Part shown: in pieces, positions 9,613 through 63,765 of the stretch
How positions within the stretch are numbered: position 1 is the first letter of the stretch
Layout: each line of letters starts with the position of its first letter
Origin: Myxococcota bacterium
GTDB taxonomy: Bacteria; Myxococcota_A; UBA9160; UBA4427
DNA: 64,000 bases
NCBI GenBank assembly: GCA_030748735.1
Contig: JASMLK010000058.1
Coordinates: forward strand, 1-64,000
Direction: 5' to 3'
The notes under the pieces: generated by a model
What the model saw: the letters and a program-made list of their open reading frames with translations, nothing else
What the model was told of the DNA's origin: nothing
Databases searched by the model: none
Program-made: the position numbers and the translations under genes

Positions 9613-9945
9613 TCAACCTTGCGCATCGTGCCACGGTCCGGGCAGTTTCGCAGCAGTCGCGAACACGCCCCAGGCCCCGCAGCGGTCGCAGTCGACGTTG
9701 TTGCCGTAGCAGCAGAAGGGCGTCGTGAAGTCGTTGCCCTCGATGTAGGGGGGCAGGGTCGTCGAGAGCAGGGGCAGTTGTCGGTGACGAGGTTGCAGCG
9801 ATTGGTGACGTTCACCATGGCGCTCGGGTACGCCGCCGGCGGTTCCATGGTCAGGCGGCCTGCTCCGAGCGACACGGAGCCCGAGTCGGCCGACGCGTTG
9901 TCGTCGTGGTTGTTCGATGAGGGGGGGGCGGATCGCACTCGTCAT
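9613..9945 (-). pseudogene. Remnant of a radical SAM protein gene (N- and C-terminal pieces joined, frame shifted)
   Basis: One frame reads GAGRLTMEPPAAYPSAMVNVTNRCNL (radical SAM N-terminus); the adjacent frame continues LLSTTLPPYIEGNDFTTPFCCYGNNVDCDRCGAWGVFATAAKLPGPWHDAQG* (Cys-rich C-terminus). The core is missing. Confidence 0.65.
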
Positions 9946-10862
9946 GCCGACTCCAGGTGTCGCTTCAGGAAGTCGCGCATCGCCACGGCGGCGTGCTCGA
10001 ACGCTTCGCCCTCGTACGGGTTGAAGTGGTGGCCATCGATCATCACCAGTTCCTTCGGTTCGCCCGCGCGCTCGAATGCGGCGCAGGTAACCGCGGCCTC
10101 CGCGAGGCGGTCCTCGGTCGCCACGACGAGCAGCAAAGGCCGCGGGGCTACGTGTGCGATGCAGGCACCGGGATCCCATGCGGGTTCGGTGCCCGCCGCG
10201 TTCTCGAGCGCGACGGAGTTGAACCAGTTGGGCGCGCGCGATCCCGCCTCCCCGAACCATTCGGTCGATTCCGGCTGATCGAGAATGACGGGCCCCTCGA
10301 TCCCTTCACTCTGGATCACGGGGATCGGCCCCATCAAGGTGTGTTGCGTGTCCGCCAGCGAAGTGCCGCTCTCGTCGTAGAGCTGTTCTCGAATCGCGGC
10401 GTAGTGTTTGGCGGTGTCGCTGTAGTCCGCCTCGGCATAACCCGCGAAGGGTACGTTCGCGATCACCGCCTTCACGCGATCGTCGCAAGCCCCCACCACG
10501 ATGACTTCACCGCCGCTGTAACTGCTGCCCCAGATCGCGATGCGGTCGGCGTCGGTCCTCGGTTGATCGGACAGCCAGGTGATTGCGTGGCGATAGTCAC
10601 GTGCCTGGGCCCACGGGTTGATCTGCTGCCGCGGTTCTCCATCGCTGGCGCCGAGGTTGCGATGGTCATAGACGAGGACCGTCATCCCGGCATCGCACAG
10701 GGCCTCGGCGAAGCGGTCGAGCGCCATTTCCTTCACGGCTGAAAGACCGTGGGCCATCACGACGCCCGGCACCTCGGCATCGCCACGCGGCAGGTAGAGC
10801 CAACCCCGTAGCAGCGTTCCGCCGTGACCTTCGAAAGCGACGTCCTTGCGCTCGTTCACCAA
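9942..10862 (-). CDS. Alpha/beta hydrolase (dienelactone hydrolase/acetyl xylan esterase-like)
   Basis: GVVMAHGLSAVKEMALDRFAEALCDAGMTVLVYDHRNLGASDGEPRQQINPWAQARDYRHAITWL...IAIWGSSYSGGEVI (GxSxSGG nucleophile elbow). Confidence 0.85.
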   Translation of the reverse strand: MVNERKDVAFEGHGGTLLRGWLYLPRGDAEVPGVVMAHGLSAVKEMALDRFAEALCDAGMTVLVYDHRNLGASDGEPRQQINPWAQARDYRHAITWLSDQPRTDADRIAIWGSSYSGGEVIVVGACDDRVKAVIANVPFAGYAEADYSDTAKHYAAIREQLYDESGTSLADTQHTLMGPIPVIQSEGIEGPVILDQPESTEWFGEAGSRAPNWFNSVALENAAGTEPAWDPGACIAHVAPRPLLLVVATEDRLAEAAVTCAAFERAGEPKELVMIDGHHFNPYEGEAFEHAAVAMRDFLKRHLESA

Positions 10863-11225
10863 CTAGCCGCCGAGCACTTTCTTCGATCGGTCCTGGAAGG
10901 TGCAGTCGTTGGTGCGCACGTGTCCGGGGTACTGCTGCTCGAACGCCCGGCAGATGTTCGGTCGCATTCGCCAGGTGCCGTCTTCTTCTGCGTAGAGCGA
11001 CTGCTCGATGAGCGTTTCGCTTGCTTCCCGGATCTCCCGGATTTCGACGTCTCTCGCTTCGACGCCATCGCCCTTCAGGTGTTCCACGAGACCGCAGACC
11101 GTGTCCGAAACGAGCGTGAACTTGACGTCCAGTTCCTCGTTCGTCGTGACGGTTGCTTCATAGGTATAAGGAAGGTCCTTGATGTACTTCGACCTCGGCC
11201 CGACGATGCGACGAACGATCCCCAT
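10863..11225 (-). CDS. Conserved-looking hypothetical protein, 120 aa
   Basis: MGIVRRIVGPRSKYIKDLPYTYEATVTTNEELDVKFTLVSDTVCGLVEHLKGDGVEARDVEIREI...; uninterrupted ORF abutting the hydrolase gene. Confidence 0.6.
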   Translation of the reverse strand: MGIVRRIVGPRSKYIKDLPYTYEATVTTNEELDVKFTLVSDTVCGLVEHLKGDGVEARDVEIREIREASETLIEQSLYAEEDGTWRMRPNICRAFEQQYPGHVRTNDCTFQDRSKKVLGG

Positions 11226-11364
11226 TTGAAGCCCCCTGGCGGAAAGACGAAAGAATAGTGCGCTGAATCGCTCTCCAGTATGTGCGCGGTCAGTTTGCTG
11301 CGGCGGGGTTCGAGCCAGGGTCGCGCCAAGGAGCGGGAATCCTCTGGTTTGCCGGCGGTCTCTG

Positions 11365-12012
11365 ATGGCGAGTCGCGAAGTCACACTTTCTGTACTCCGC
11401 CACGTGACACGTGCAACAGCCGCGCAGTCATGCGCGGAGGGCGAACGGTTGCGCGCGTGTCTGGACTCGATTCCCGAAGCGGTCGGTCGCGTCGTCTACG
11501 TCGACTCAGGCTCCACCGACGGCAGCGTCGAACTGGCGCAGTCGTACGGGGTTTCGGTCGTGAACCTCGACATGTCACGCCCATTCACCGCAGCCCGTGC
11601 GCGCAACGCAGGCTTCGAGCGACTGATGCGCGTGCACAATGGGCTCGTCTATGTCCAGTTCCTGGATGGCGATTGCAGTCTCGTCGAAGGATGGCTTGAA
11701 GAGGCCCTCGACTTGCTGGGCAACCATCCCGACTGGCTCGCCGTTTGTGGATGGCGACGAGAGCGACACCCCGCGGCCCTGGTCACGGCCTTGTTCACCA
11801 GCCCGCTTATGTTGACGCTGGTACTGGGGCTCTATGGCCTTCAGATCGTTCGGATCGCACGACGGTTGAACCCGGATCGCTTCCCCCTGCGACAACGCTT
11901 GCTCTGGGGTGTTTCGTGCCTGGTATCGCAGGTCCCGAAGATCCAGGGCCTGCTCACCTACCTGCGCAATCGGCGCCGCGGCACACAGCAGCAGCCCATC
12001 GAGTACAAGTAG
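11365..12012 (+). pseudogene. Glycosyltransferase family 2 remnant with apparent in-frame internal deletion
   Basis: N-part: VVYVDSGSTDGSVELAQSYGVSVVNLDMSRPFTAARARNAGF...VYVQFLDGDCSLVEGWLEEA...CGWRRERHP. This jumps straight to a membrane C-terminus (AALVTALFTSPLMLTLVLGLYGLQIVRIARR...PIEYK), lacking the mid-domain expected in GT2. Confidence 0.6.
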
Positions 12013-12320
12013 GGCGCGTCTCCTTCTGCCTCACCCCTCTGTAGCCCGATCGTCTTGGAAACGTGCGGTCCGATCGCGCGCTCATCGAGCCGCAGCGATT
12101 CCGCAACTCTCGCCCACCAGGAGTCTTGGGTCGAAATCTGTCGAAAACAATTGCGCGCAGGCAGGCGGCATCTTGCCCCATAGGCATTCGCCAGATCACG
12201 TTCATTCGCGCATTCGATCCGGAGGATCGATGCGCCGTCCGCCCATGATCCCCGTCATAGGACGCTGTCGGGGTTCACTGATAAGTTGGATGGCCACTTG
12301 GACACGACCAGAGGAATGTC

Positions 12321-13268
12321 ATGAAATCCCCCAGTAACAACGAGCCGAGCCCCACCGAAACCGACCTTCAGGCCATTGCGAAGACACTCAAGCCTTTGTC
12401 GTTTCCCACCAGGTTCGCAGTCGAACTCTGCGCGGACTGCAACATGGCCTGCGCCATGTGCCATCACCCGCAGATGCGTCGACCCAAGGGTGTCATGCCG
12501 ATGGCGCTGTGGCAGAAGTGCGCCGACGAGATCGGCAAGCTGAAGCCCAAGACCGAAGTCTGGTTCTCGTTCTGTGGTGAACCGTTGCTCGAGCCGGACC
12601 TCCTCATCGAGATGCTCCAGTACGGGAAGGCCGCCGGGCTCGAGGCGATCAACATCAATACGAACGGGATGTACCTCACGCCACGCGTCGCGAAGGGGCT
12701 CCTCGAAGCGGGGGTCGACCTGATCGTGATCGGAATCGATGGTTTCGAAAAGAAGACGTACGAGTCGATCCGCATCGGCGGCGTGCGCGAAACGCTCTAC
12801 GAAAACGTCGAGACGCTCCTCGCGATCCGCGACGCGGGAAACTACGACACGGACGTCATGTGCCAGTTCATCGAAATGGACTCCAACGCCCACGAGTTCG
12901 AGGACTTCAGGCGCCATTGGCACGCCCACGGTGCCAGCGTAAAGGTGCGCAAGCAGCTGAGCTGGGGCGGGAAGTTCGAGAACAACCTCCAGATCCCAAC
13001 CGACGACCGCATCCCCTGCCCCTGGGCGATCACCATGATGCACGTCTTCTGGGACGGACGCGTGCCGCGGTGCCCCGGTGACACGGAAGGCGACGAGGGC
13101 GTGGGCAATGCCTGGCACGATTCGCTCGAGGATCTGTGGGCGCGGCTCGACCAGTACCGCTCGCTCCACATCGCTCGCGACTTCGAAGCGCTGCCCGAAC
13201 GCTGCCACACCTGTAAGGACTGGATGACCGGGGCAGCCAATCGACTTCGACCGCGGGCGGAGGGCTGA
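12321..13268 (+). CDS. Radical SAM/SPASM domain protein
   Basis: FAVELCADCNMACAMCHHPQMRR (CX3CX2C), FSFCGEPLLEPDL, and SPASM-like C-terminus HVFWDGRVPRCPGDTEGDEGVGNAWHDSLEDLWARLDQYRSLH...CHTCKDW. Confidence 0.9.
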   Translation: MKSPSNNEPSPTETDLQAIAKTLKPLSFPTRFAVELCADCNMACAMCHHPQMRRPKGVMPMALWQKCADEIGKLKPKTEVWFSFCGEPLLEPDLLIEMLQYGKAAGLEAININTNGMYLTPRVAKGLLEAGVDLIVIGIDGFEKKTYESIRIGGVRETLYENVETLLAIRDAGNYDTDVMCQFIEMDSNAHEFEDFRRHWHAHGASVKVRKQLSWGGKFENNLQIPTDDRIPCPWAITMMHVFWDGRVPRCPGDTEGDEGVGNAWHDSLEDLWARLDQYRSLHIARDFEALPERCHTCKDWMTGAANRLRPRAEG

Positions 13269-13272
13269 GTCG

Positions 13273-14256
13273 ATGAAATCGCTCTACTTCTGTGGGGCCG
13301 GCAACTCCGAAGGGATTCGCCTGGCCCAGACGATCAACCGCGAAGAGCAACGTTGGAGCGAGATGTTCGTGCTCGACGACGATGCGTCGAGACACGGTAC
13401 GAAGCTGCTGGGTTGCGAGATCATCGGTGGCTTCGACGTACTCGCTGACGTCGACCCCGAGACTTCGGAGGTCGTCAACCTGGTGGCACGCCAGACGCGA
13501 GGCCGCAGCGCAGCGCGCAAGAAGATCGCGTCATATGGCGTGCCCTTCACGCGACTGGTGAGTCCGAACGTCGATACCTACGGTGCCGAGGTCGCGCATG
13601 ACGCGATCGTCTACCACAACGCGACCATTGGTCCCGAAACCGTCGTCGGCGAAGGAAGTGTCGTCTTCATGGGGGCGGTCGTGGGACATGAGGCAATCGT
13701 CGGCAAGAGTTGCGTCATGGCCGCCAACTCGGTGCTCAACGCACGCGTGGAACTGGGGGAAGGCGTCTATGTCGGGACGAACGCGACGATCTTGCCGGAG
13801 ACCAAGGTCGGGGCCTTCGCAACGATCGGTGCTGGTTCGGTCGTGCTCGAAGACGTACCCGCAGGTGCGACGGTGATCGGCGTGCCGGGTGAGGTATTGA
13901 GCAGTCCGGCAGCCAATCGTGCGGCGACGGAAGAACCCGAAGTGCAGATCGATCACGAACTCGAGAAGACGATCTGCAAGATCTGGCAGGACGTCCTCGC
14001 TGTCCCCGTGGTCGAAGTGGGACACAACTTCTTCGATGTCGGTGGGAGTTCGCTGCTCGCAGTACGCATGCGCGACCACCTGCACGAGGAAACGGGAAAC
14101 AAGATCTCACTCACCGATGTCTTCCGTTTTCCGACGGTGCGCTCGCTCGCGGCCCACGTGGTTTCGAACCGCGGCAACGCGGCTCCACCCAAGGCCGCCC
14201 CCTCGCGCGCGGCCATCCGCCGCGAGTTCCACGCACGCTGGCGCAAGACGCACTAA
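13273..14256 (+). CDS. NeuD-like hexapeptide-repeat acyltransferase fused to a C-terminal phosphopantetheine carrier domain
   Basis: Hexapeptide repeats (AIVYHNATIGPETVVGEGSVVFMGAVVGHEAIVGKSCVMAANSVLNARVELGEGVYVGTNATILPETKVGAFATIGAGSVV) followed by LEKTICKIWQDVLAVPVVEVGHNFFDVGGSSLLAVRMRDHL...FRFPTVRSLAAHV (carrier GGSS site). Confidence 0.87.
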   Translation: MKSLYFCGAGNSEGIRLAQTINREEQRWSEMFVLDDDASRHGTKLLGCEIIGGFDVLADVDPETSEVVNLVARQTRGRSAARKKIASYGVPFTRLVSPNVDTYGAEVAHDAIVYHNATIGPETVVGEGSVVFMGAVVGHEAIVGKSCVMAANSVLNARVELGEGVYVGTNATILPETKVGAFATIGAGSVVLEDVPAGATVIGVPGEVLSSPAANRAATEEPEVQIDHELEKTICKIWQDVLAVPVVEVGHNFFDVGGSSLLAVRMRDHLHEETGNKISLTDVFRFPTVRSLAAHVVSNRGNAAPPKAAPSRAAIRREFHARWRKTH

Positions 14257-14260
14257 CAGT

Positions 14261-14277
14261 CCGGGCTAGAGGCCCGG
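14261..14277 (+). terminator. Hairpin CCGGGC-TAGAG-GCCCGG downstream of the NeuD-carrier gene
   Basis: Perfect 6-bp GC stem shortly after the stop codon at 14256; no clear U-tract. Confidence 0.4.
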
Positions 14278-14401
14278 CCGGTCCGGAACGTCACAGACCG
14301 GCTCGCAACCGAAGTCCCAGGATCGCCCACCGGGTGCGGAGGTGTCATGACGAATGTCATGCAAGTCGCGCGCAGCGGAAAGCGGCGTGCGAACGCTTGC
14401 G

Positions 14402-15067: not shown

Positions 15068-15093
15068 GGCGCGAGGCCTCCGTGGTTGCTGCT

Positions 15094-15543: not shown

Positions 15544-15555
15544 TCCGCTTCCTCT

Positions 15556-16503
15556 CTAGGCATTCTGTGCTCGCTTCACACCGGTCGCTCCCACGAGCGG
15601 CGTGTACACCCCGGCCTTCACGACGCAGTACTTGACGTAGAAGTCGCCGATCAACGACGTCACGCCGATCGCGCCGAGCACGACGAGTTCCGGGATGGCC
15701 AGTGTCTCGCGAAATGCCGTGAGTGCGATGGGCAGCGCGATCCCGACGATCATCGTGCCGCCGTAGAAGGCGGCAGAGACCCGCCCCATCACGAGCGCCG
15801 AAACGGATTCCCTGGCAGCGCCCCCCGCACGCCTGCCGGAAACGAGATAGAGCAGGATCAGCACGGCGGTCGACACGATGGCCCAGAGCTTCACGGCTTC
15901 GACAGCGGCCACGTCGAACTGTCCAGCGCCGAGGGCCGCTGCGATGAGGAGAAGTGCGGCACCACCGCGCAATCCATACGCGACGTAGAGCACTGGAAGC
16001 AGGCTCGTGTTCCAGAACGGGATGGCTTTGGAAGCCGCGTAGACGAACCCTTCGTACGCGAGGATCGCGCAAGCGGCCAGCACCGAAGCAAACACCAATG
16101 GTTTGGCCGCGGCGCTGTCGGCGATCGCCGGGATCTCCGACGCCACCGCGAGCAAGCTGAACAAGCCGATCGACCAGATGCCCCGGCTGATCCAGCTCTT
16201 GTGGGGACGCTTCAGCATGCGCCAGAAACGATTCCAACGGCCGAGAAAGGCAAGGTGGGCGATGCCCGACAACCCGACCACGCAGCCGAAGGCGATCCAG
16301 CGGCCGATGTCGAAGTCATAGAGCGTCGACCAGAGCCAGGCTCCGGCACCGATGCCCGAAAAGAAGTGGGCCACGACGATCAGAAGCCCCCGTCCATCGA
16401 TCCACTCGCGCTGGGGTCGGTACACCTGCGCGAGGTCTTGCCGCCTGAGGTCGAGGGTGTCGTTGCGTAGGTCGAGTTGGGTCGAGATATCCATGGCGTT
16501 CAC
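15556..16503 (-). CDS. NrfD/PsrC/DmsC-like polytopic membrane subunit
   Basis: Many hydrophobic helices (LLIVVAHFFSGIGAGAWLWSTLYDF...), operonic with FeS and Mo subunits, 4-bp overlap with the upstream gene. Confidence 0.82.
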   Translation of the reverse strand: MNAMDISTQLDLRNDTLDLRRQDLAQVYRPQREWIDGRGLLIVVAHFFSGIGAGAWLWSTLYDFDIGRWIAFGCVVGLSGIAHLAFLGRWNRFWRMLKRPHKSWISRGIWSIGLFSLLAVASEIPAIADSAAAKPLVFASVLAACAILAYEGFVYAASKAIPFWNTSLLPVLYVAYGLRGGAALLLIAAALGAGQFDVAAVEAVKLWAIVSTAVLILLYLVSGRRAGGAARESVSALVMGRVSAAFYGGTMIVGIALPIALTAFRETLAIPELVVLGAIGVTSLIGDFYVKYCVVKAGVYTPLVGATGVKRAQNA

Positions 16504-17111
16504 CGTTCCGGTGGCAGGTAATAGACGGAGGGATCGGTTCCGAGTTCGGGGTTCAGCTGGAAGCCCCCGTGTTCGTCGATCAATCGCCTCACTTCACTGT
16601 CTGGATCGTCGAGGTCCCCGAAGATCCGCGCCTTGCACATGCAGTTGGCCGAGCAGGCGGGCTCTTCACCCTGTGCGAGACGGCTGCGGCAGAAGTCGCA
16701 TTTCTCGACGACCCCGCGCTCATGGGCGGAATAAGCCGCCTGCTCGTATGCGTTTTCACCGACTTCGAAGTAGTCGCGGGTTTCGTCCTGGAAGTAACGG
16801 GCCCCATACGGGCAACCCATCATGCATGCCCTGCACCCCACGCACGCTTCGCGATCGATGAAGACGACGCCGTCCTCGTCGCGCTTCTGGCTCGCACCGG
16901 TGGGGCAGACATCGACACAGGGTGGGTCATTGCAGTGCATGCATAGAACCGGGATCGAGAGCTTCTTCACGTTCGGAAACTCTCCCCATTCGCGCTTCAC
17001 GACGCGGGCATAGGTGGTGCCGGGCCGCGTTCCGTTTTCGGACTTGCATGCGATCTGGCACCCGTAGCAGCCGATGCACCGTTTCAGGTCGATCACCATT
17101 CCGAGTCGCAT
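16500..17111 (-). CDS. 4Fe-4S ferredoxin-type electron transfer subunit (DmsB/PsrB-like)
   Basis: MRLGMVIDLKRCIGCYGCQIACKSENGTRPG...CMHCNDPPCVDVCPTGA...REACVGCRACMMGCPYGARYF...KCDFCRSRLAQGEEPACSANC. Confidence 0.94.
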   Translation of the reverse strand: MRLGMVIDLKRCIGCYGCQIACKSENGTRPGTTYARVVKREWGEFPNVKKLSIPVLCMHCNDPPCVDVCPTGASQKRDEDGVVFIDREACVGCRACMMGCPYGARYFQDETRDYFEVGENAYEQAAYSAHERGVVEKCDFCRSRLAQGEEPACSANCMCKARIFGDLDDPDSEVRRLIDEHGGFQLNPELGTDPSVYYLPPER

Positions 17112-17112
17112 C

Positions 17113-20243: not shown

Positions 20244-20957
20244 TCAGGCGGAGAGGGGAGGGGCCTGTGCCGACCGAAGCTGTTCGTATACCGGTGGTGC
20301 ACCCACGCCGAGCCGCTCGCGTGCGACATCGATCGGGAGTTCGAACAGCGCTTCCCAGTCCTGGTCGAGCAGCCACTTCGCACGCAAGCCGCGCCAGAAG
20401 CCCTGGCGAATGAGGCGCCCCGGTTCGGAGAACCAACCGTTGCGCCCGAGCGCCCGCCACACGAGGTATGCGATGCCGGTGTTCCAGGTCTGCGGGATCG
20501 TAAACGCGAGCACGCCCATCTCACCGCGCATGTCGCGGTCGTAGCCCGTCAAGACGTGGAAGACGTCGTGAAGCGCGAGCAAGCGCGAACCGAAGAGTTT
20601 GCTCGCTTCGCTGTCGTTCATTGCGCGGTCGGGAAACTGCTCGGAGGCTTCTTCACTCGCTCCTACGAGCCCCTCTGCGCTGATCCCCTCTTTGATGAAC
20701 CACTCGCAGATCGTTCGGCCAAGCGTTCCTTCGGGCAACGCGAGAAGCCGCTCGCGATCGCAGAGCAGGCGACCGATGTCGCGTCGCTCCTGCAGGATGC
20801 GCCCCCCAGCCGGCGACTTCTTGAACCTGGCGAAGAGCCGGTCGTTCGAGTTGCCCGCCATGGCGGCAATCACCACGATGGCCTGCGCGGTGTCGTCGGG
20901 GTTGTCGGCGAGGGTCTTCATCGCCTGCCTGGCCAGCTTGATGTCGCGAGAGGGCAT
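20244..20957 (-). CDS. Coq4-like protein
   Basis: HDVFHVLTGYDRDMRGE matches the Coq4 HDxxHx11E metal-ligand signature; FTIPQTWNTGIAYLVWRALGRNGWFSEPGRLIRQGFWRGLRAKWLLDQDWEALFELPIDVARERLGV. Confidence 0.78.
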   Translation of the reverse strand: MPSRDIKLARQAMKTLADNPDDTAQAIVVIAAMAGNSNDRLFARFKKSPAGGRILQERRDIGRLLCDRERLLALPEGTLGRTICEWFIKEGISAEGLVGASEEASEQFPDRAMNDSEASKLFGSRLLALHDVFHVLTGYDRDMRGEMGVLAFTIPQTWNTGIAYLVWRALGRNGWFSEPGRLIRQGFWRGLRAKWLLDQDWEALFELPIDVARERLGVGAPPVYEQLRSAQAPPLSA

Positions 20958-21331
20958 GGTCCAACCTCCTTCGCAAGACGGATACCCGGTATGAACAGGA
21001 GCCGCGCGCCTCGCGCTGCTTGGATGGAATGTACAGCGCATGAGGAAGATCGGTACGACGGCTGGGCGTTTGCGAGCAACTGCAACCGAAAAGGGCGCCG
21101 GCCAGGTGATAGGCAGCGTGATGATCGCGCTCCCTGTGACCGCGTGCCCCACCCCGAGGCAGCATCAGGCTTCACGCGAGCGCACGAGGAGCGAGTTGCG
21201 GGACCGAGCGGTTCGAATCGAACTCGCTAGCGTTGCTCGCCGACCGAAATCGGAGCTTTCGGACCGAGGATGCACGATCCCGATGGCGGCAACCGCCTCA
21301 TCCTTTCACGATCAACGAGGAACCCACCGCA

Positions 21332-31675: not shown

Positions 31676-31996
31676 TCAATAATGCCCATAAGCCGAAGCA
31701 TTCCAGACCCTTGCGACGGTTTCCCCCACACGCGTGGGAGATTCGGGCTCGAGCTTCGTGACGTGGTCGGTGGCCACCGCGGTGTTCATCAGGATCACTT
31801 GTGCGAAGAGAGCCATCGTCACGTCTTCGAGGCTCTTGAAGTAGTGATAGAACGACGAGCGGGTCATCCCGGTGCGTTTCATCAGGTGCTCGACGGTGAG
31901 CTGGTTGAACTCCACTTCGGCAAGGGCGGCTTCACCCGCTTCGAGGATCTCGTTGCGGGCCTCTTCGGGGGATCGTCGGAGTCGTTGCTTGGCCAC
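31676..31996 (-). pseudogene. TetR-family regulator remnant with apparent in-frame internal deletion
   Basis: 106 aa: complete HTH (RNEILEAGEAALAEVEFNQLTVEHLMKRTGMTRSSFYHYFKSLEDVTMALFAQV) directly followed by a TetR C-terminus-like tail (LMNTAVATDHVTKLEPESPTRVGETVARVWNASAYGHY). Confidence 0.6.
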
Positions 31997-35501: not shown

Positions 35502-35597
35502 ATGGGTATCCCGGTGCAGGGTCATTGCGACAACAGCTTTGGCGAGATCCGCGAGATCTTCGAGAGGTGCTTCGATGGCGACGAAGAGATCGGGGCG
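35502..35597 (+). pseudogene. N-terminal remnant of serine beta-lactamase/EstB-like hydrolase
   Basis: MGIPVQGHCDNSFGEIREIFERCFDGDEEIGAAICAHQ resembles the start of beta-lactamase-family esterases (VxGxcdxrFxxvrexFxxnFxxxxExGAAvcv); the rest of the domain is absent. Confidence 0.5.
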
Positions 35598-38090: not shown

Positions 38091-39272
38091 TCAGGATGCT
38101 GTCGGTGCGGCGCCTGCGACGGCTGCCCGCCAGCGTGGAGCCACGATGCCGTTGAGGATCGCCAATGCGATCAGCGACATCGCTCCCGCCGTCAGGAAGG
38201 CGGCGCGATAGTCGATACCGCTCGCGATCAATCCAAAGAGCGGGCCGATCACCGCGTTGGCGATGTCGAAGAAGCCCGTGTAGGTCGCCATCGCCGCACC
38301 CCGTTCGTTCGGGGGCACCCCCGCTACTGCGACCGCGATGAACGAGGGCGACTGCAGTGAGAGCCCACAGGCCAGCATCGCAGCACCGACGAACAAGCCG
38401 GCGGGTGCTTTCCAGAACGCCACCACGAGCGCCGCGACTACGGTGAGGCCGAGTGCGAGCGAGCCGGCGCGGATCGGTCCGATCTGGTCGGGGACACGAC
38501 CGAAGGCGATACGCACGATCACGATGGTGATCGACGACACGAGGAAGATGGCCCCCACATCGTCGAGTCCAACTTCGCGCGCGTAGAGGGGAACGAACAT
38601 CATGAAACCATTGAAGGCGAAGACCCCGAACAGCGACACCGAACCCGGCCAAAGCGCATTGGGGTGCACCAGCGGCGCCGGGACGGCGTGGGGATCGCCG
38701 GGACGATGGGAAAGCTGCGTGGCGATCAACCCGGCGCTCAGTGTGGCTCCGGCGGCCACGAACCAGATCCACCCATAGCCCAACAGTGCGAGCAGGGCCT
38801 CGGCCGCCGAAGGCCCGAGCCCCATCCCGATGTGAAACGAAATGAGAATGTAGGAAGCAGCCTCGCTGCGTCGCGATTCGGGAGCCAGTTCGATCGAGAG
38901 CATCGTCGACGCGGTCATCACCGCAGCATTGCCGCACCCCAGGATGAGACGTGCCGCGATCGCACCGGGCACCGATGGAATCGCCGCCAGGACACACATT
39001 GCCAGCGTTGCGAATGCCGAGCCGACGACGAGTACGCGCCTCGCACCGCGCATGTCGCCGAGCCTGCCGAACCACATGCGGGTGAATAGGGCCGAGACCG
39101 CCATCGAGCCCATCACCACGCCCGCCGTCACCTCGGTCCCACCGAGTTCGTCGACGACGTAGCGCGGCAAGAGCGCATTGAGCGCACCGTTGCCGAGGAA
39201 GTACACGCTCGCGCACGCCATCAACGTCCAGAACTCGGGCGTGAGCAGGGACTCGGGTCGGGGCTTCGTCAA
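38091..39272 (-). CDS. MFS transporter
   Basis: 12-TM-like hydrophobic pattern with LFTRMWFGRLGDMRGARRVLVVGSAF and VPDQIGPIRAGSLAL loops; 393 aa. Confidence 0.87.
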   Translation of the reverse strand: MTKPRPESLLTPEFWTLMACASVYFLGNGALNALLPRYVVDELGGTEVTAGVVMGSMAVSALFTRMWFGRLGDMRGARRVLVVGSAFATLAMCVLAAIPSVPGAIAARLILGCGNAAVMTASTMLSIELAPESRRSEAASYILISFHIGMGLGPSAAEALLALLGYGWIWFVAAGATLSAGLIATQLSHRPGDPHAVPAPLVHPNALWPGSVSLFGVFAFNGFMMFVPLYAREVGLDDVGAIFLVSSITIVIVRIAFGRVPDQIGPIRAGSLALGLTVVAALVVAFWKAPAGLFVGAAMLACGLSLQSPSFIAVAVAGVPPNERGAAMATYTGFFDIANAVIGPLFGLIASGIDYRAAFLTAGAMSLIALAILNGIVAPRWRAAVAGAAPTAS

Positions 39273-39574
39273 TCTTCCGTATCCGAGGACTTCATCCAGG
39301 CGTGGGCATAGCGATCGCCCACGATTCGATCGGGTGTGAAGAGCGCGTCGAGGTGGTCGATCCGTTCAGCGTCGAGCTCGATTTCGGCTGCGGCCGCGTT
39401 CTCTTCGAGGCCGTAGGCGTTCGCCGTGTCGAAGAAGGTGACGCCGATTTCGATCGCGCGGTGCAGCGTCTTTTCCGCTTCGTCGGGGTCGGCCTTGCCG
39501 TAGCTGTCCGTCATGCTCATGCAGCCGAGGCCAATGGCGCTGACATCGAGCGCGCCGAGGGTGCGTCGCTTCAT
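39269..39574 (-). pseudogene. Aldo/keto reductase remnant with apparent in-frame internal deletion
   Basis: 101 aa: N-terminus MKRRTLGALDVSAIGLGCMSMTDSYGKADPDEAEKTLHRAIEIGVTFFDTANAYGLEEN joined to C-terminus AAAAEIELDAERIDHLDALFTPDRIVGDRYAHAWMKSSDTED; the whole barrel core is absent. Confidence 0.72.
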
Positions 39575-41695: not shown

Positions 41696-42127
41696 TCATG
41701 TCAACGCAATGCCATCTGCCTTTACGAAAGTCCCACCCTTCACGATGACGTCGACTGCGCTCAGTGCGTGCAGGTCGACGAGCGGGTCTCCCTTCACGGC
41801 GATGAGATCGGCGCGTTTGCCCTTCGCGATGGAGCCGATCTCGTCCTGCATGTCGATGATCTGGGCGTTCAGCGACGTCGCCCTGCGAAGGATGTCGGCA
41901 TTGGGAATGCCGGCGTTCGCGAAGTGCTGGAGTTCATCCTTGTAGCGCCCGAAGAACTGGGTCCATGGATTCCCGATGTCGGATCCGATCCCGACGTTCG
42001 CACCCATGCGGTAGAGGTTCTTCAGGTTCTCCATCACGTTGACGGCCAGCGATTGTTCGTCGATCCAGCCGACGACGAGGTGTCGCGGGATGGTGCCTGT
42101 GGTGGCGATGCCCGGGCCGATACGCAT
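41696..42127 (-). pseudogene. C-terminal remnant of an amidohydrolase
   Basis: IATTGTIPRHLVVGWIDEQSLAVNVMENLKNLYRMGANVGIGSDIGNPWTQFFGRYKDELQHFANAGIPNADILRRATSLNAQIIDMQDEIGSIAKGKRADLIAVKGDPLVDLHALSAVDVIVKGGTFVKADG; lacks the N-terminal metal-binding HxH half; frame closed upstream by an in-frame stop. Confidence 0.68.
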
Positions 42128-46169: not shown

Positions 46170-46439
46170 CTATACCGGCCCCGTTTCGAACGAAGAAAGA
46201 TCGTCCTTGGCGGCTCTTTCCTGGTAGACGGCGAAACCGTGGGGCCACTGGGTGACGTTGTGGCCCGACGCGTTTCGATAGTAGTCGCTGGTGTTGCCCT
46301 GCCAGGTCCCGCCCACACGCGGTTCGCGATCGAAGATCAGGAAGTCGTTCTCGCCGCCCTCGAACAGCTGGATCCCGGCACACAGCCCACCGGCGCCTGC
46401 GCCGATGATCGTGAATCGGGTCTTCGTGGGTTGGGACAT
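46170..46439 (-). pseudogene. Flavin monooxygenase remnant with apparent in-frame internal deletion
   Basis: 89 aa: N-terminus TRFTIIGAGAGGLCAGIQLFEGGENDFLIFDREPRVGGTWQGNT joined to C-terminal FMO signature SDYYRNASGHNVTQWPHGFAVYQERAAKDDLSSFE. Confidence 0.7.
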
Positions 46440-46664
46440 GGATCGGGCTCTCCTGTGTTTTCGGTGCGTGGAGCGAGTTCGGTGCGCGCAATCTCGAGAC
46501 CCGCACCGGGCCCGGGGAGGAAGGAGTAGCGGTCGCTCATGCTCCTATTATGGAGCACTTCGCCCCAAGGGTCCGCGACCTGCCGCGAGACGCGAGCCGT
46601 GCGGATCGCAGGCCCATCACGTCCGTGAGGGACTAGTATCCGCCGCATTCAGCGAGGAGTAGCC

Positions 46665-47150
46665 ATGAGCGCGGCGAAGCGGAGCGGCGACCGGCAGGCC
46701 ATCTTCATCACGGGCGGCGCGAGCGGGATCGGACGTGCGGCCGCGCAGCCGTTCTGCCAGCGCGGTTGGTTCGTGGGCGCATACGACATCGACGAAGCCG
46801 GCCTGGTTTCGCTCGAAAGCGAGCTCGGTCCTTCGAATTGTGTGACGCGAAGACTCGATGTCAGCGACAAGGGTGAATACGAGCAGGCGATGGCCGGGTT
46901 TTCCGCCGCCACGCTCGACTACTCCGACGGCGAACGCCCGGGTGTTGCGATGCGTAAGACCGCCACACCCGACGGTCCCATGCGGCTGGTTCAGCCAGAA
47001 GAGGTCGCAGAACTCGTGTGGACGGCCTATGGCTCCGACCGGGTGCACTGGAACATCGCCGAAGAGATGGAAAACGTCGAACGCGGTCGCGCCGGTGGCG
47101 TCGAGGGAATGCGCGACCAGTTCAAGAAGACGATACTCGCCGATGCCTAG
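46665..47150 (+). pseudogene. SDR family oxidoreductase remnant with apparent in-frame internal deletion
   Basis: N-terminus IFITGGASGIGRAAAQPFCQRGWFVGAYDIDEAGLVSLESELG...RLDVSDKGEYEQAMAGFSAAT, then directly MRKTATPDGPMRLVQPEEVAELVWTAYGSDRVHWNIAEEMENVERGRAGG; NNAG and YxxxK regions absent. Confidence 0.68.
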
Positions 47151-47174
47151 CGCCCGGCCTCGAGAGGAACACCG

Positions 47175-51360: not shown

Positions 51361-53757
51361 GTGCACGCCCGAATCGAAGCGCTTCTCGAGACCTTGGGAC
51401 ATTTCGTCTATCGCCGGGCGTGGTGGATCCTCGTCCTGGCGCTGGCGGTGACTGTTGGTGTGGGCACGCAGCTGAAGCACTTCTACATAGATGCGTCTCT
51501 CGAGGGCTTCTTTCGCAAGGATGACCCCGTTCGCGTCCTCTACGACGAGTTTCGCGAGCAGTACGGTCGCGACACTTTCATCCTGATCGCACTCGAGCCA
51601 GGTACCTCGATCTTCGAGCGCGAGTTCCTCGAAACACTTCGCGAGTTGCACGAGCGGCTCGAGAACGAAGTTCCCCTGGTCGTCGAAGCGACGAGTCTGG
51701 TGAACGCCCGCGTGACCCGTGGCGTGGGGGACGAGCTGGTCGTCGGCGAGTTGATGGAAGACTGGCCCGAAGACGACGCGGCGATCCGGACCATCGAAGA
51801 ACAGGCGCGCGCCAACCCGCTCTACGAAAAGAACCTGATCTCTGGCGACGGCCGGTGGACCACGATCATGCTCGAACTCGAGGTCTATTCTCAACTCGGG
51901 GAAGTGACGGATGCACTCGAAGGCTTCGAGCCGGGTTCAGAAAGCGAAGGAGAGCCACCCGAGTACCTGACCGGCGCAGAAGAGAGCGAGGTGATCGCTA
52001 CGGTGTTCGCGATGCTCGACGAGTACCGTGGTGAAGGGCTGCGCATCGAAGTGGCCGGTACGCCCGTGCTCACGGATCAGTTTTCGCTGTTGATGCAGCG
52101 GGACATGGGGCGCTTCACCGTGATGGCGCTGCTCATCATCGTCGTCAGCCTGGCCACGCTCTTTCGCCGCTTCGGAGCGGTCTTCTTGCCGCTCGTCACC
52201 GTGATCTGCGCAGTCATCGTCACGATGTCGATCATGGCTGCGACGGGGACGCCGCTCACATCGCCCACGCAGATCATCCCGACGTTCCTGCTCGCCGTAG
52301 GGGTCGGGGGTTCCGTGCACATCATGACGATCTACTACCAGGCGCGGCGCCAGGGGCTTTCGAAGGAAGACGCGCTGGCGCACTCGCTCGGCCATTCCGG
52401 GCTTGCCGTCATCATGACGAGCCTGACCACAGCCGGTGGGTTGCTTTCCTTCATCGCGGCGGAGCTACTCCCGATCGGGCACTTCGGCGTTTTCGCACCC
52501 GTTGGCGTGATGGTGGCGCTCTTCTTCTCGCTCACGATGTTGCCCGCACTGGTTGCGGTTTCGCCTGGCCGGCGGCAGGGGCAGGGCGAGGCCAAACCAC
52601 TCTTCTTTACCCAGCAGTTGTTGGTCGATGTCGGTGTGTTCTCGGCGCGTCACAGCACAGCGATCCTGGTGGTTACGTCCCTGATCGTGGCCGCGGCTCT
52701 CTACGGAACCACCATGCTCCGCGTTGCACACAGTCCCTTCGATTGGTTCCCCGACGGCGACGCGACCCGGATCGGCATGGAAACCATGGACACCAACATG
52801 GGGGGCATGGGGAACATCGAGCTGATGGTCGACACGGGCGAGGTCAACGGCTTTCATGACCCCGCCTTTCTCGCGCAGGTCGATGTCCTGCGCGACTACG
52901 TCTACACCCTCGACGTGAACGACGTGCAGGCCGGTAAGGTTCTCTCGCTGACCGACGTGCTGAAGGAAACCCACCGCGCCCTCAACGAGAACCGCAGCGA
53001 CTTCTATCTGATTCCCACAGATCGCAACCTCGTCGCGCAGGAGTTGTTGCTCTTCGAGAATGCCGGGAGTGACGACGTCGAAGACCTCGTCGATTCGACG
53101 TTTCAGAGCGGACGTATCTCGGTGCGCGTACCCATCGGCGATGCGGTGGCGTATCCGCCGTTCATCAGCGCAGTGGTCGAAGGCGCAGAGCGGCTCTTCG
53201 GCCCGAACGTGGAGGTCCGGGCTTCGGGCATCGTGCACGTGATTGGCGCGACCATGACGGCCGTGCTCGAAACCATGCTGCGCAGCTACGGGATGGCACT
53301 TGCGATCATCACGCCGTTGATGGTGTTGCTGATCGGGAAGGTGCGGGTCGGCCTGCTGGCCATGATCCCGAACCTGACGCCGGTGCTGCTGGCCCTCGGC
53401 ATCATGGGCTGGGCCGATATCCCCCTCGACGCCTTCACGCTTCTCGTTGGAAGCATCGCCATGGGCCTCGCGGTCGACGACACCATCCACTTCATGCACA
53501 ACTTCCGTCGCTACTTCGACGAGGCCGCAAACGTCGAGGTCGCCGTGCGCAAGACCCTCGAAACGACCGGCCAGGCGCTCCTCTTTACGAGCATCGTCCT
53601 GTCTCTCGGCTTCGCGATCTACACCCAGGCCTACCTCACCAACCTCTTCTACTTCGGGTTGCTCACTTCGCTGACGATCGTGTTTGCCTTTCTTGCCGAC
53701 ATCGTTCTCGCCCCCGCGCTGCTCGTGAAGGTCTTTTCGGCCGAGAAGACCGCGTGA
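51361..53757 (+). CDS. MMPL/RND superfamily exporter (hydrophobe/lipid transporter type)
   Basis: 798 aa; IDASLEGFFRKDDPVRVLYDEFREQYGRDTFILIAL...GVGGSVHIMTIYYQARRQGLSKEDALAHSLGHSGLAVIMTSLTTAGGLLSF...GLAVDDTIHFMHNFRRYFDEA. Confidence 0.93.
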   Translation: MHARIEALLETLGHFVYRRAWWILVLALAVTVGVGTQLKHFYIDASLEGFFRKDDPVRVLYDEFREQYGRDTFILIALEPGTSIFEREFLETLRELHERLENEVPLVVEATSLVNARVTRGVGDELVVGELMEDWPEDDAAIRTIEEQARANPLYEKNLISGDGRWTTIMLELEVYSQLGEVTDALEGFEPGSESEGEPPEYLTGAEESEVIATVFAMLDEYRGEGLRIEVAGTPVLTDQFSLLMQRDMGRFTVMALLIIVVSLATLFRRFGAVFLPLVTVICAVIVTMSIMAATGTPLTSPTQIIPTFLLAVGVGGSVHIMTIYYQARRQGLSKEDALAHSLGHSGLAVIMTSLTTAGGLLSFIAAELLPIGHFGVFAPVGVMVALFFSLTMLPALVAVSPGRRQGQGEAKPLFFTQQLLVDVGVFSARHSTAILVVTSLIVAAALYGTTMLRVAHSPFDWFPDGDATRIGMETMDTNMGGMGNIELMVDTGEVNGFHDPAFLAQVDVLRDYVYTLDVNDVQAGKVLSLTDVLKETHRALNENRSDFYLIPTDRNLVAQELLLFENAGSDDVEDLVDSTFQSGRISVRVPIGDAVAYPPFISAVVEGAERLFGPNVEVRASGIVHVIGATMTAVLETMLRSYGMALAIITPLMVLLIGKVRVGLLAMIPNLTPVLLALGIMGWADIPLDAFTLLVGSIAMGLAVDDTIHFMHNFRRYFDEAANVEVAVRKTLETTGQALLFTSIVLSLGFAIYTQAYLTNLFYFGLLTSLTIVFAFLADIVLAPALLVKVFSAEKTA

Positions 53758-53890: not shown

Positions 53891-54086
53891 CGCCTGACCG
53901 AGCCTCCGGTTGGGGGGAGTGTCAGAATAGCGAGGGGGCGCGAGTTGCTCGATCCGCGAGCAGGGGCGATGCTGCACATGCGGGCGTCCGAACGGCCTGT
54001 CGAGCAGATCAGGAGCGAGTGCCCAGAATGCGTCCGAATCCACCGCGCGTTGTCGTCATGGCTTTCGGGCTGCCGACCGGCGAGGG

Positions 54087-55085: not shown

Positions 55086-55116
55086 CAGGTCGTTGCGACA
55101 GACTGGAGTGCAACGA

Positions 55117-55977: not shown

Positions 55978-56084
55978 CGTCGCGCTTTCGAGTCCGGAAT
56001 CCGTGGTGCCGTGCCTCGGCCTCCGAAGTAGTATTGCGGTGCGATAGGGAACAGCGTTCACGAGCAATCGAGAGGGACCGTTCA

Positions 56085-57095: not shown

Positions 57096-57124
57096 CGAAA
57101 ACCCGGACCCCACAGGAGAGATTC

Positions 57125-57493: not shown

Positions 57494-57538
57494 GGGCTTT
57501 GCCCAGCCGGCTGATGGCGCCTCGGTGAAGCAACTCGA

Positions 57539-58999: not shown

Positions 59000-59065
59000 C
59001 GCGATCTTCTCCCAAGGCAGGCGCCTCCATTCACACGATGGGTGGAGACGACGCTTCTATGTATG

Positions 59066-61552
59066 TCACGCGTGTCGGGGCTGCTTGTCGAAGCGCACTC
59101 CGCACAATTCGAGCAGGGCCGGAAGCAAGAGGAGATCGGCGAGCAGGGCGGTGGTGAACGAGATCCCGATCAGGAAGCCGAAGTGGGCCATCCCCTGGTG
59201 TTTGGAGGTCGTGAGGATCAGGAACCCGAGCACGAGGATCACGGATGTGAAGGTGATGGCCTGTCCGACCTCCGAGATGGTCGACGCAATCGCACGTCGG
59301 GTGTCACCCGTTTCGAGCGCGAAGGCGCGGTAGTGGGTGATGAAGTGGATCGTGTCGTCCACCGCGATCCCGATGATCAACGGTGCGATGATCAGGGTGT
59401 CGGCATCGAGCGGGATTCCCGAGAGCCCCATGACACCAAAGGTGATCAGCACCGGATAGACGTTCGGGACCATGGCTACGAGCCCCGCCCGGGGTGAGCC
59501 GAAGACGATCAAGAGCAGCACCGTCACCACGACGAGCACGAGGCCGAAGCTCTGGATCTGTGCGCGACCGATGTAGTCCGCCATGCGCATGACGAGTGGC
59601 AGGCTCCCCGTGATCCCGACTTCGAGGTCCGGGTAGTCCTTCGAGAGCGAATCGAACACGCTTTGCGCACGCGCCTGAACGGTCTCGAAGAACTCGACGT
59701 ATTCCGACGACCCGTAGTTGAACATCCTTACGTTGATCCGCGCCTCGCTGTAGTCGTCGGGCACGAGCAGTTCGCGGTCTTCGGGGTTGGCGAGGTCGAA
59801 GAGCAGCAGCGTCTGGGCCAGCATCGGACGCTCCTGGGGGATGCGATACATCTCCTCGCGGTCCTCGTTGATGGCCTGGAAGGTGTTCTTGACCACGTCG
59901 GTGAGGGAGTCCGTGCGCACCACGAACTCGGGATGTTGTTCCTCGAGCAGCAGTTGCATCGCCTCCATCGCGTTCAGCACGCGTGGATCCTTCAACGCAT
60001 CCGTTTCGCCGAAGTCGAGGTAGATCTCCATGCCCTGGGTGCCACCCATCACGCGGTCGACCAGGTCGTGGGCCGCACGAATCGGCAGTCCGGGGCGGAT
60101 GATCTCGACGAGGTTCGAGTCGACCTGGACCCGGCTCACGCCATAGGCCCCAATCGCGCCGACGATCGCGAACACGACGACGATCGGTACGGGCCAGCGG
60201 CTCGGGACGGGCTCGAGGGTGCGGAGCATGCGTTGCACCCACGGTGTGCGGGTCGAATCTGCGGTCGACGCCTCGCGACGAACGGGGGCCCACGAGTCGA
60301 GCATGAGCGGCAGCAACACCATCGTGAAGGCGAAGGCGAACGTGACGCCCAGCGCCGCCGCCAGCCCGAAATTGCGAATCGGCGGGAGCGGAACGAAGGC
60401 GAGCGAGAGCATGCCGAGCGCAGTCGTCACGCTGGTCAGCAGGCAGGCCAGCCCGGACTTGCGGAACACGTGCTCGAGCGCCGAGGCGTGCTCCGCGCCT
60501 TTGCGGCGCCAATGCAGGTAGCCGGACATGATGTGCACCGAGTCCGCGATCCCCACGACGAGGACCAGGATCACGAGCACACTGATCATCAGGCTGAGCT
60601 TCAAGCCGAACCATCCCAGGAGACCGAGGGTGACGACGGTCGAGAAGCCCACGATGGCGATCGGCCAGACGACGCCGGAAAGCGATCGGAAGAGCACACC
60701 GAGAACCACCATCATGATCAGCAGTGCGCCCGAGAACAGGGCGTCGAGTTCGTCGACCAACACGTCGTTGAAGAAACCCATGATCATCGGGTTGCCAACG
60801 GCGTGGAAGTCGAGCGCTTGTGCGAACTGGGGGCTCGACGTCACCCCTGTGACGGCACGCGCGAATGCGGCGTACTCGACCATCGTGGTCGGCTTGCTGC
60901 TGGGGAGCGCGGTTTCACTCTCGTCCGCGTCGAAGGCTCCTTCGATCGCGTCCTCGCCATTGGATTCGGGTGGAAGGGCGCCGAGGTCGGTGCGGATCCA
61001 GATGCCTCCATAGCGCGAGTCGCCCGACATGTAGAAGCGCGGGTAGTCCTTGTGGGCGAGCGCTCGACGACGCAGCGCTTCGCGCTCTGTAGTCGATTCC
61101 GGGATGTGTTCGATGAAGTCGCGCGAGACGAGGGTGTCGCCCCGAACCTCGAGGTAGCTGGCATTGATGATCGTGGTGACGTCGAGGATGTGCTCGAGGG
61201 CGGCTGTGTCCGGCGAACTCGGCTCGTCACTTGCGTCGAGCAGGGCCTGCCCGACGCTGCGGACCGCTTCGAGGGAAGCCGGCGACAGCACGTCGCCATC
61301 CCGCGCTTCGTAGACGATGTAGACCCCCTCGTCGCTACCGAAGGTGTCCTTGAATCGCTCGTGGAGCAGGCGCACGGGGTCGTCCTCGAAGAAGAACGAC
61401 TCCATCGTCATGTCGATCTCGAGCCGGCCGAGACCGGCGCCCGTCACGACCGCGAGTGAGATCGCAACACTCCATACCACCAGGCGTCGTTCGAGAAGCC
61501 TGGCGGGCAGGGCGGCGAAGAAGCGGTTCAGGGCCTCGAGTGTGTCGTGCAC
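59066..61552 (-). CDS. MMPL/RND superfamily exporter (paralog of 51361..53757)
   Basis: 828 aa; LEIDMTMESFFFEDDPVRLLHERFKDTFGSDEGVYIVYEARDGD...GIADSVHIMSGYLHWRRKGAEHASALEHVFRKSGLACLLTSVTTALGMLSL...GIAVDDTIHFITHYRAFALETGDTRRAIASTISEVGQAITFTSVILVLGF. Confidence 0.94.
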   Translation of the reverse strand: MHDTLEALNRFFAALPARLLERRLVVWSVAISLAVVTGAGLGRLEIDMTMESFFFEDDPVRLLHERFKDTFGSDEGVYIVYEARDGDVLSPASLEAVRSVGQALLDASDEPSSPDTAALEHILDVTTIINASYLEVRGDTLVSRDFIEHIPESTTEREALRRRALAHKDYPRFYMSGDSRYGGIWIRTDLGALPPESNGEDAIEGAFDADESETALPSSKPTTMVEYAAFARAVTGVTSSPQFAQALDFHAVGNPMIMGFFNDVLVDELDALFSGALLIMMVVLGVLFRSLSGVVWPIAIVGFSTVVTLGLLGWFGLKLSLMISVLVILVLVVGIADSVHIMSGYLHWRRKGAEHASALEHVFRKSGLACLLTSVTTALGMLSLAFVPLPPIRNFGLAAALGVTFAFAFTMVLLPLMLDSWAPVRREASTADSTRTPWVQRMLRTLEPVPSRWPVPIVVVFAIVGAIGAYGVSRVQVDSNLVEIIRPGLPIRAAHDLVDRVMGGTQGMEIYLDFGETDALKDPRVLNAMEAMQLLLEEQHPEFVVRTDSLTDVVKNTFQAINEDREEMYRIPQERPMLAQTLLLFDLANPEDRELLVPDDYSEARINVRMFNYGSSEYVEFFETVQARAQSVFDSLSKDYPDLEVGITGSLPLVMRMADYIGRAQIQSFGLVLVVVTVLLLIVFGSPRAGLVAMVPNVYPVLITFGVMGLSGIPLDADTLIIAPLIIGIAVDDTIHFITHYRAFALETGDTRRAIASTISEVGQAITFTSVILVLGFLILTTSKHQGMAHFGFLIGISFTTALLADLLLLPALLELCGVRFDKQPRHA

Positions 61553-61561
61553 GACGACGCT

Positions 61562-61990
61562 TCAGCTTTCGTTGCCCAGGCCCTGCGCGACGATCGGGAT
61601 CATCACCGCCACTCCCGCGACCATCGAAAGCGCGCCGATGGGCGTGAAATTCATGGCCGCACCCAGCCCGGCCCCCGCGAGATAGATGGTTCCCGAGTGA
61701 AATGCGGCTCCGACGATCAGCAGGATCGAAGCAGCCTTGGTGAGCATTGCGGTTGGATCGCCAACACGGCAGATCAAGTAGCCGAGCACGATGTTGAGCA
61801 GCGCCTCGAGATTGCCGTGCGAGTGGGCCGTCGCGAGAAGATGCTTCGCCGTGCTCTGGGCCCAGTCCGGGTCCTGTGCCTGTCCCTTGTTCGCGAGGTA
61901 CATCCCGAGACCGAGGGTCGTCAGGAAGTAGACGAGACCGAAAAGGATGTTCTTCTTGCCGATGGTGTTCCGCATTGCTTTCGCCTCCAT
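61562..61990 (-). CDS. Small hypothetical membrane protein, 142 aa
   Basis: Four hydrophobic stretches (NILFGLVYFLTTLGLGMYLA, LLNIVLGYLICRVG, ASILLIVGAAFHSGTIYLAGAGLGAAM, GALSMVAGVAVMIPIVAQGL). Confidence 0.65.
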   Translation of the reverse strand: MEAKAMRNTIGKKNILFGLVYFLTTLGLGMYLANKGQAQDPDWAQSTAKHLLATAHSHGNLEALLNIVLGYLICRVGDPTAMLTKAASILLIVGAAFHSGTIYLAGAGLGAAMNFTPIGALSMVAGVAVMIPIVAQGLGNES

Positions 61991-62153
61991 GCCGGGACAG
62001 GTGCCGTGCTCTTCACGGCCACGGGTCGCGAGAATAGGACGTTCGAAGCCCTGCTCGCATGGGCCGTCTTTTCCTTGACGCGATAGACCGGATCATGTGT
62101 GATCGATCCCCCAGCCCGGAGCACCAGGAGAAGTAGATCGATGGAAGTGACCC

Positions 62154-63614
62154 ATGGAGCACTATGACGTCTGCGTGATCGGCGCCGGCTATGGCGGCGC
62201 TACCGTCGCGGCCCTGCTCGCCAAATCGGGGCGGCGTGTCGCGCTGATCGACAAGACCCCCGTCGCTGGCGGCAAGGTGCAGACGGTCGATCGCAAGGGA
62301 TACCGCTTCGAGATGTTCGGCGCGGTCGGCATCCCGGCACACGACTCGCGTTTTCACGAACTCGTCGAAGAACTCGACATCGGTGACCAGGTCGAGTTCC
62401 TCATCCCGGAAGGCGACGCCGCTTCGGTGCGCTACAAGACGCCGGCCGGTGAGTGGCGCGTCATGTACAGCCCCCTTCGCCAGACCGGTGCTCCCAAGGA
62501 AATGGAAGACCTGCGCCGCGTCTTCGACGCAACCGACGAAGACCTGGACGCGATGGCAAAGCTTTATGCGACCGCATTGTCACTCACCGACGACGAGATC
62601 GCGGCGCTCGACGACGTGGGCATGCTGGAATGGATGAAGCCGTTCGGTCTTCCGAGCGGGCTCGAGAGCCAGATCTGCATGAACCTGAACACGTTGTTCG
62701 TCGTGGCCGTCGATCGCCTCGCGGCCTCCGAGGCCATCCTTGCGATGCGGCAGCAAGTGCTCGGAGGTGCGGGGCGTTACAGCGTCGGTGGCTATGCGCG
62801 CCTGGCAGAAGCCTGCGCGAACTATGTCGTGAAGCAAGGGGGTGTGTTTCTCAGCCGTCAGCGTGTCAAGCGGATCGTCGTCGATGGCGGCCGTGTGGTG
62901 GGAGTCGAGACGGACCGCGGCGAACTGCGGGCCGATGCCATCGTGAGCAACGCCGGCATTCAACCCACGGTGCTCGCGCTTGCGGGTGCCGAACATTTCC
63001 CGAGCGACTACGTCGATCGCGTTACCGCACTCGAACCCAGCTGGGCGATCGCCGGCTATCGCTACGTGCTCGACGAGCGCATCTTCGACGCGGCGTTGAT
63101 CCCGATCTTCTCCGATCAGAGTTGGCTCGACGAAGCGCGTTATCAGGACATGGCGCGCGGTGTCTGGCCCGACGTCCCGTTGATCGCAGTCGACGTTCCG
63201 TCGGAATTCGATCCGAGTTTGTCTCCGGTGCCCGGTCATCAGATCGCAAACTGCCAGGTCTTCTGCTCGCCCGATCCCAGGTCCACACAGTGGAAGGAAG
63301 CGATCGAGCGCGCCGACGAGATCTTGAACGAGCTATGGCCCGACCTCGAAGATCACATCATCCGCAAGGAACCCTACGGCCCCAGAGCCATCTCGAGTCT
63401 GAGTCGCGACTCGGTGCTACCCGGTTGCGGCGGAGAAGCGGTCGGGCTGGCTCAAGTCGTGGGCCAGGTGGGCAGCATGAAGCCCGACCCCCGCACCCCG
63501 CTGCCGGGCTTGTATCTCGTAGGCTGCGATGCAGGCGGGCGAGGCGCTGGCACCCATCAAGCGGTGGATTCCGGCTTCAACGTCGCCGCGATGGTAGACG
63601 CGGACCTGGGCTGA
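62154..63614 (+). CDS. NAD(P)/FAD-dependent oxidoreductase, phytoene desaturase/CrtI-like
   Basis: MEHYDVCVIGAGYGGATVAALLAKSGRRVALIDKTPVAGGKVQTVDRKGYRFEMFGAVG...GGVFLSRQRVKRIVVDGGRVVGVETDRGELRADAIVSNAGIQPTVL...LPGLYLVGCDAGGRGAGTHQAVDSGFNVAAMV. Confidence 0.88.
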   Translation: MEHYDVCVIGAGYGGATVAALLAKSGRRVALIDKTPVAGGKVQTVDRKGYRFEMFGAVGIPAHDSRFHELVEELDIGDQVEFLIPEGDAASVRYKTPAGEWRVMYSPLRQTGAPKEMEDLRRVFDATDEDLDAMAKLYATALSLTDDEIAALDDVGMLEWMKPFGLPSGLESQICMNLNTLFVVAVDRLAASEAILAMRQQVLGGAGRYSVGGYARLAEACANYVVKQGGVFLSRQRVKRIVVDGGRVVGVETDRGELRADAIVSNAGIQPTVLALAGAEHFPSDYVDRVTALEPSWAIAGYRYVLDERIFDAALIPIFSDQSWLDEARYQDMARGVWPDVPLIAVDVPSEFDPSLSPVPGHQIANCQVFCSPDPRSTQWKEAIERADEILNELWPDLEDHIIRKEPYGPRAISSLSRDSVLPGCGGEAVGLAQVVGQVGSMKPDPRTPLPGLYLVGCDAGGRGAGTHQAVDSGFNVAAMVDADLG

Positions 63615-63624
63615 CTTCAGGGCA

Positions 63625-63765
63625 TCAGAGCGCACCGTTCTCGACGAACCCTCCTACGACCACGGCCCGCGGCACGATCTCGTGCAGTTCGTTGATCGGG
63701 ATTTCGAGCGGGCTGTCATCCAGCACGACGAAGTCCGCGCGCTCCCGTACTTGAAAGTGGGTTGT
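63625..63765 (-). pseudogene. C-terminal remnant of an amidohydrolase
   Basis: Translation RADFVVLDDSPLEIPINELHEIVPRAVVVGGFVENGAL* = typical amidohydrolase tail; no upstream catalytic domain, since another gene's end lies immediately upstream. Confidence 0.6.

Follow-up and report, generated by a model that had tools for sequence, protein, structure and literature searches.

Gene remnants with apparent in-frame core losses in an operon-rich stretch of a Myxococcota draft genome

Deletional pseudogenes, in which accessory genes are inactivated by deletion, have previously been described in bacteria (Mira, Ochman and Moran 2001; Kuo and Ochman 2009, 2010). In Salmonella, pseudogene formation is dominated by short deletions, which remove 20% of the gene or less, and by premature stops; among single-event pseudogenes, such short deletions are found in 141 of 346 and premature stops in 131 cases (PMC2916853). 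The six gene remnants described here are deletion-type pseudogenes and as such of a known kind. As in the described bacterial cases, accessory genes are inactivated by deletion, the disabled forms are not common to close relatives, and the remnants adjoin intact genes. Unusual is their spectrum, dominated by large in-frame core losses: in contrast to the Salmonella pseudogenes (PMC2916853), large internal blocks are missing with the frame kept, and one small frameshift accompanies them. With both ends kept, the core removed and the frame preserved, the remnants also resemble engineered in-frame deletion mutants. However, they stem from a natural draft genome, carry no scar or marker, and have remnant ends of irregular length.

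The window, i.e. the whole stretch of DNA analysed, comprises bases 1–64,000 of the 121,907-base contig JASMLK010000058.1 (C58). It belongs to a draft genome of 5.08 Mb (G000) with an estimated completeness of 94.8%, the fragmentation of which (160 contigs) suggests a metagenome-assembled genome; its closest matches among genome contigs are metagenome-assembled Deltaproteobacteria. Each of the six loci was searched against 24–40 related genomes (24 in the case of the radical SAM locus). Orthologs of window genes in the relative G002, 68–90% identical, are spread over contigs C213, C17, C95 and C258, and gene order within the genus is strongly rearranged.

Alignment to intact relatives revealed a missing internal block at each of six loci, i.e. 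radical SAM, GT2, TetR, aldo-keto reductase (AKR), FMO and SDR (Table 1), which the initial annotation had described as genes with both ends kept and the core lost. The relatives carry one longer gene, the two ends of which match two parts of each short open reading frame. Identity of the flanks to the intact genes amounts to 55–88% at the protein and 72–83% at the DNA level, and all six junctions, placed by alignment to these intact homologs, are abrupt. The lost lengths, measured relative to the closest intact gene of the relatives, span 291–1188 bp and are divisible by three in all six cases. Since the ends of the relatives' genes match and the lengths are multiples of three, the description holds for the deletion at all six loci, with reservations for radical SAM and GT2. 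Each locus combines an intact homolog in relatives with a defined part that is absent from G000, as characteristic of a deletion-type pseudogene. A match spanning the junction was found neither in 40 relatives (AKR, FMO, SDR, TetR and GT2) nor in 24 (radical SAM). The disabled forms are not common to the close relatives among the 24–40 genomes searched and thus appear young and lineage specific; natural families of small proteins, which would make short homologs common, are unlikely, since none of these relatives has the same short form. Judged from family knowledge, the catalytic motifs of the SDR, AKR, FMO and radical SAM remnants are presumably gone. As noted initially, normal-length genes surround the remnants: those window genes around them that have Pfam matches are full length.

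Table 1. Coordinates of gene remnants in the window, with losses given relative to intact genes of related genomes (genome:contig, locus).
Feature	Position	Strand	Loss or structure	Intact relatives
Radical SAM remnant	9613..9945	-	about 627 bp lost near 9791, in frame, inside CxxxCxxC region	G014:C72 (L242; 335-aa frame), G006:C41 (L243)
GT2 remnant	11365..12012	+	about 375 bp lost at 11773-11784, in frame	G002:C258 (L058/L139), G007:C11 (L059/L212)
TetR remnant	31676..31996	-	about 291 bp lost at about 31797, in frame	G024:C5 (L048)
AKR remnant	39269..39574	-	678 bp lost at 39406-39411, in frame	G016:C490 (L008), G002:C95 (L011/L140)
FMO remnant	46170..46439	-	1188 bp lost at 46289/46290, in frame	G024:C14 (L028), G001:C32 (L029), G002:C213 (L032)
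SDR remnant	46665..47150	+	348 bp lost at 46912/46913, in frame	G030:C267 (L038)
In-frame fusion	41696..42127	-	piece of hydrolase, presumably MBL-fold, joined near 42035 to amidohydrolase C-terminus	G002:C248 (L155/L193)
WS/DGAT-like N-terminal piece, about 45 aa	53757..53890	-	runs into convergent MMPL gene end	
Amidohydrolase C-terminal piece, 46 aa	63625..63765	-	rest lost	

At the radical SAM locus, the deletion junction itself is in frame (NRCN joined to LVTDNCP). A separate 1-bp loss just downstream of the junction (GCCC-CTGC in the window versus GCCCGCTGC in the relative), however, shifts the frame. A possible further remnant of this family is located on contig C131 of G000 (20945–21100), where an 81-aa open frame matches the radical SAM C-terminus at 46% identity. 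The two GT2 pieces are 75% and 64% identical to the 405-aa frame of G002. Here homology begins abruptly at EGERL, with the DNA alignments to two relatives both beginning at base 11437; the sequence is GLVLIGRNEGERLR in the relatives versus ATAAQSCAEGERLR in the window. This abrupt beginning points to a second breakpoint near 11436 and to loss of the true N-terminus, so that both ends are not genuinely kept in this one case. The TetR remnant retains the complete DNA-binding domain plus the C-terminal ILMN..VATD..RVW. In the AKR remnant, residues 1–61 and 53–101 are 79% and 55% identical, respectively, to the 351-aa frame of G016, while the FMO pieces display 82% and 72% identity to the 517-aa frame of G024.

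The SDR pieces share 78% and 88% of their residues with the 278-aa frame of G030, and 81% and 83% at the DNA level. Along window positions 46634–47143, compared with L087 from G030:C267, this identity of 78–88% includes about 30 bp of upstream sequence. Within the order, G030 and G000 fall into different families, and such identity to a genome of another family, extending upstream, suggests that the SDR gene was horizontally acquired before the deletion.

Four one-ended remnants had been proposed as well, two of which could be retained. The piece at 63625 matches positions 435–468 of 472 in PF07969 (E=2e-4), and the piece at 53757 shows a weak match to positions 1–35 of 263 in PF03007 (E=0.0045, below cut-off). 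The frame at 41696–42127, in contrast, is a mosaic of two genes. Its residues 1–31 match residues 176–206 of a 332-residue G002 hydrolase, which we take from family knowledge to adopt a metallo-beta-lactamase fold, at 87% identity. The remaining piece, at 35502, gave no match in the family profile search. Three further candidates were rejected: 2281–2928 carries an entire nitroreductase domain, the relative being longer by an additional N-terminal half; 16500–17111 encodes a complete Fe-S subunit; and the SDR truncation at position 105582 of C58 is a start error of the gene caller, the family match covering positions 2–189.

Deletion between short direct repeats of 4–15 bp had been suggested as a mechanism. 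Short-homology illegitimate deletion fits the junctions, but the homology is mostly shorter than such repeats would be: read from relatives of different species, which renders the exact extent inferred, it amounts by strict count to 0 bp for FMO and SDR, 1 bp for TetR, 0–2 bp for radical SAM, 3 bp for GT2 and 4 bp for AKR as well as for an AKR remnant on contig C129, and by looser count to 3–5 bp (CCT) for AKR and 0–2 bp for FMO, i.e. 0–5 bp overall. A match of 7–8 bp (CCACTGCA) at the radical SAM breakpoints exists only in the relative L243. No common motif or fixed homology length was found among the junctions, and a search of G000 for a Ku gene gave no PF02735 match. Illegitimate recombination or slippage during replication, acting at very short homologies and independently of a Ku pathway, may thus have given rise to the deletions and appears to be the most economical mechanism. 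In their junctions of 0–5 bp, the loss of hundreds of bases and the lack of Ku, they resemble products of microhomology-mediated illegitimate recombination or alternative end joining, but in contrast to these systems the homology is deduced from relatives of other species instead of an intact parental strain.

The rest of the genome was surveyed by a census of a 15% sample (747 kb) of G000 plus family searches, including a frame-agnostic comparison of the 747 kb with 1.5 Mb from five relatives. The first frame-agnostic screen returned many low-identity two-piece matches to a few, seemingly miscalled reference ORFs and was refiltered. In about 680 kb of this draft genome, a single comparable two-ended case was observed outside C58, a count that is not fully blind, as contig C129 and its reference were included after an AKR search had flagged them. 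This AKR gene (G000:C129 at about 26793; L085 6421–7239), 89% and 80% identical to G002, has suffered an internal loss of 364 bp that is out of frame. Twenty short ORFs sampled away from C58 included one partial domain. Among about 38 AMP-binding genes of G000 that were looked at, none had lost its core, the SDRs among the matches listed all comprise at least 248 residues, and 16 core genes are full length or nearly so. Since partial genes are rare elsewhere and the core, AMP-binding and listed SDR genes are unaffected, the deletion events look local to C58, although this contrast is approximate because reference sampling favoured the window.

Taken together, the remnants are best explained by deletions that are real and recent and that struck an accessory part of C58 rich in operons, with in-frame survivors preferred, a reading we put forward with moderate confidence. 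The pattern resembles normal gene loss in a part of the genome that is eroding fast locally, perhaps with a filter that spares neighbour genes. Frame-keeping deletions may have survived preferentially because most such genes are directly followed by another gene of their operon; a frameshift there would abolish expression of the downstream gene by polarity or yield an aberrant protein. A codirectional downstream gene is present within 66 bp at 6/7 remnants, and within 70 bp at 29/60 window genes, operon context being only suggestive at numbers this small. With close downstream genes at 6/7 remnants, selection against polar or aberrant products represents a reasonable, albeit unproven, filter, and the data are compatible with the selection for in-frame products proposed initially. 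The lost functions are accessory, with paralogs as a backup for several of them; paralogs of AKR, radical SAM and FMO are present in G000. The case on C129, the one comparable event outside C58, counts against this explanation by being out of frame. Moreover, it is unusual to find several deletions so recent and clean in 64 kb that shows hardly any decay by nonsense mutations or small indels.

The best-surviving alternative is that genes here decay by ordinary random deletion and that the in-frame pattern arises only because in-frame products are what a reader notices among open reading frames. The initial annotation had five of six loci in frame, more than expected by chance. As deletion events all six are in frame (p=0.0014 against an expectation of 1/3), but the present radical SAM frame is broken by its separate 1-bp loss, and the true significance is lower than this value because the loci were picked by reading open frames. 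Losses that leave no two-ended in-frame product do exist, as shown by the one-ended pieces (53757, 63625) and by the out-of-frame AKR on C129, and once such one-ended cases and C129 are counted as out of frame, 7/11 remain in frame with a p of only 0.04. On the other hand, the radical SAM deletion kept the frame even though the locus is not open at present, which implies that not every in-frame case was picked as an open frame. Random decay is a serious possibility, albeit one we tend not to favour.

Rather unlikely is an assembly or consensus artefact, in which the cells carry intact genes and the junctions were created by the metagenome assembler, or by a mixture of strains, from sequence that is not adjacent. 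The contig number and completeness of G000, which suggest a metagenome-assembled draft, the clustering of events on one contig and the undecayed appearance of sequence flanking the junctions would be in line with such misjoining. However, an overlap of 0–5 bp would not suffice for k-mer or overlap collapse, and a misjoin has no cause to keep the frame. Base accuracy looks good, with 104 other regions compared and no clear frameshift among them, and the missing cores were not found elsewhere in the bin, where the best paralogs are at most 56% identical. Core and AMP-binding genes, finally, are unaffected, and the local clustering can also be read as speaking against an artefact.

That the shortened products are kept as functional mini-proteins is highly improbable. 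Open frames within operons make up most of the remnants, and TetR has a complete DNA-binding domain, but no similar short protein was found in the relatives searched, the catalytic motifs discussed above are presumably lost, radical SAM is frameshifted, and GT2 and the frame at 41696 start with sequence that is unrelated or internal. Despite the clustering and the repeated in-frame outcome, a dedicated mechanism or site-specific recombinase that excises gene cores is very unlikely in view of the absence of a junction motif, the variable homology length and losses that range over hundreds of bases.

It is conceivable, though less likely than not, that operon genes in this lineage are lost mainly via in-frame core deletions, out-of-frame ones being purged for polarity or toxicity, and that clusters of short in-frame remnants are a regular intermediate of genome turnover. 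Should the in-frame excess be real, selection would act on the manner of gene loss and not on loss alone, and the pattern would provide a simple test of whether rapid purging is driven by pseudogene products that are aberrant or polar. The remnants also caution against annotating a short in-frame ORF of a draft genome as a functional enzyme on account of its family domain, as such an ORF may be what a deletion left behind.

Partial genes were also observed at several positions outside the window. On contig C74 of G000 (1961–2083; L070), a C-terminal piece of a LysR-type regulator is 80% identical to G002, the remainder being missing. An AMP-binding gene on contig C66 (783–1281) has C-terminal parts split over two frames and lacks an N-terminal match, which could reflect a frameshift or the contig end. 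C58 itself carries a DUF3604 C-terminal piece at 68.8 kb (L067 8790–9029) and a piece of a glycosyltransferase family 4 gene at 72.7 kb (L067 12724–13209). At 113.5 kb (L069 13467–13706), an 80-aa ORF, which starts like a saccharopine dehydrogenase-type Rossmann N-terminus and weakly matches Epimerase (E=0.0055), is probably an N-terminal remnant.
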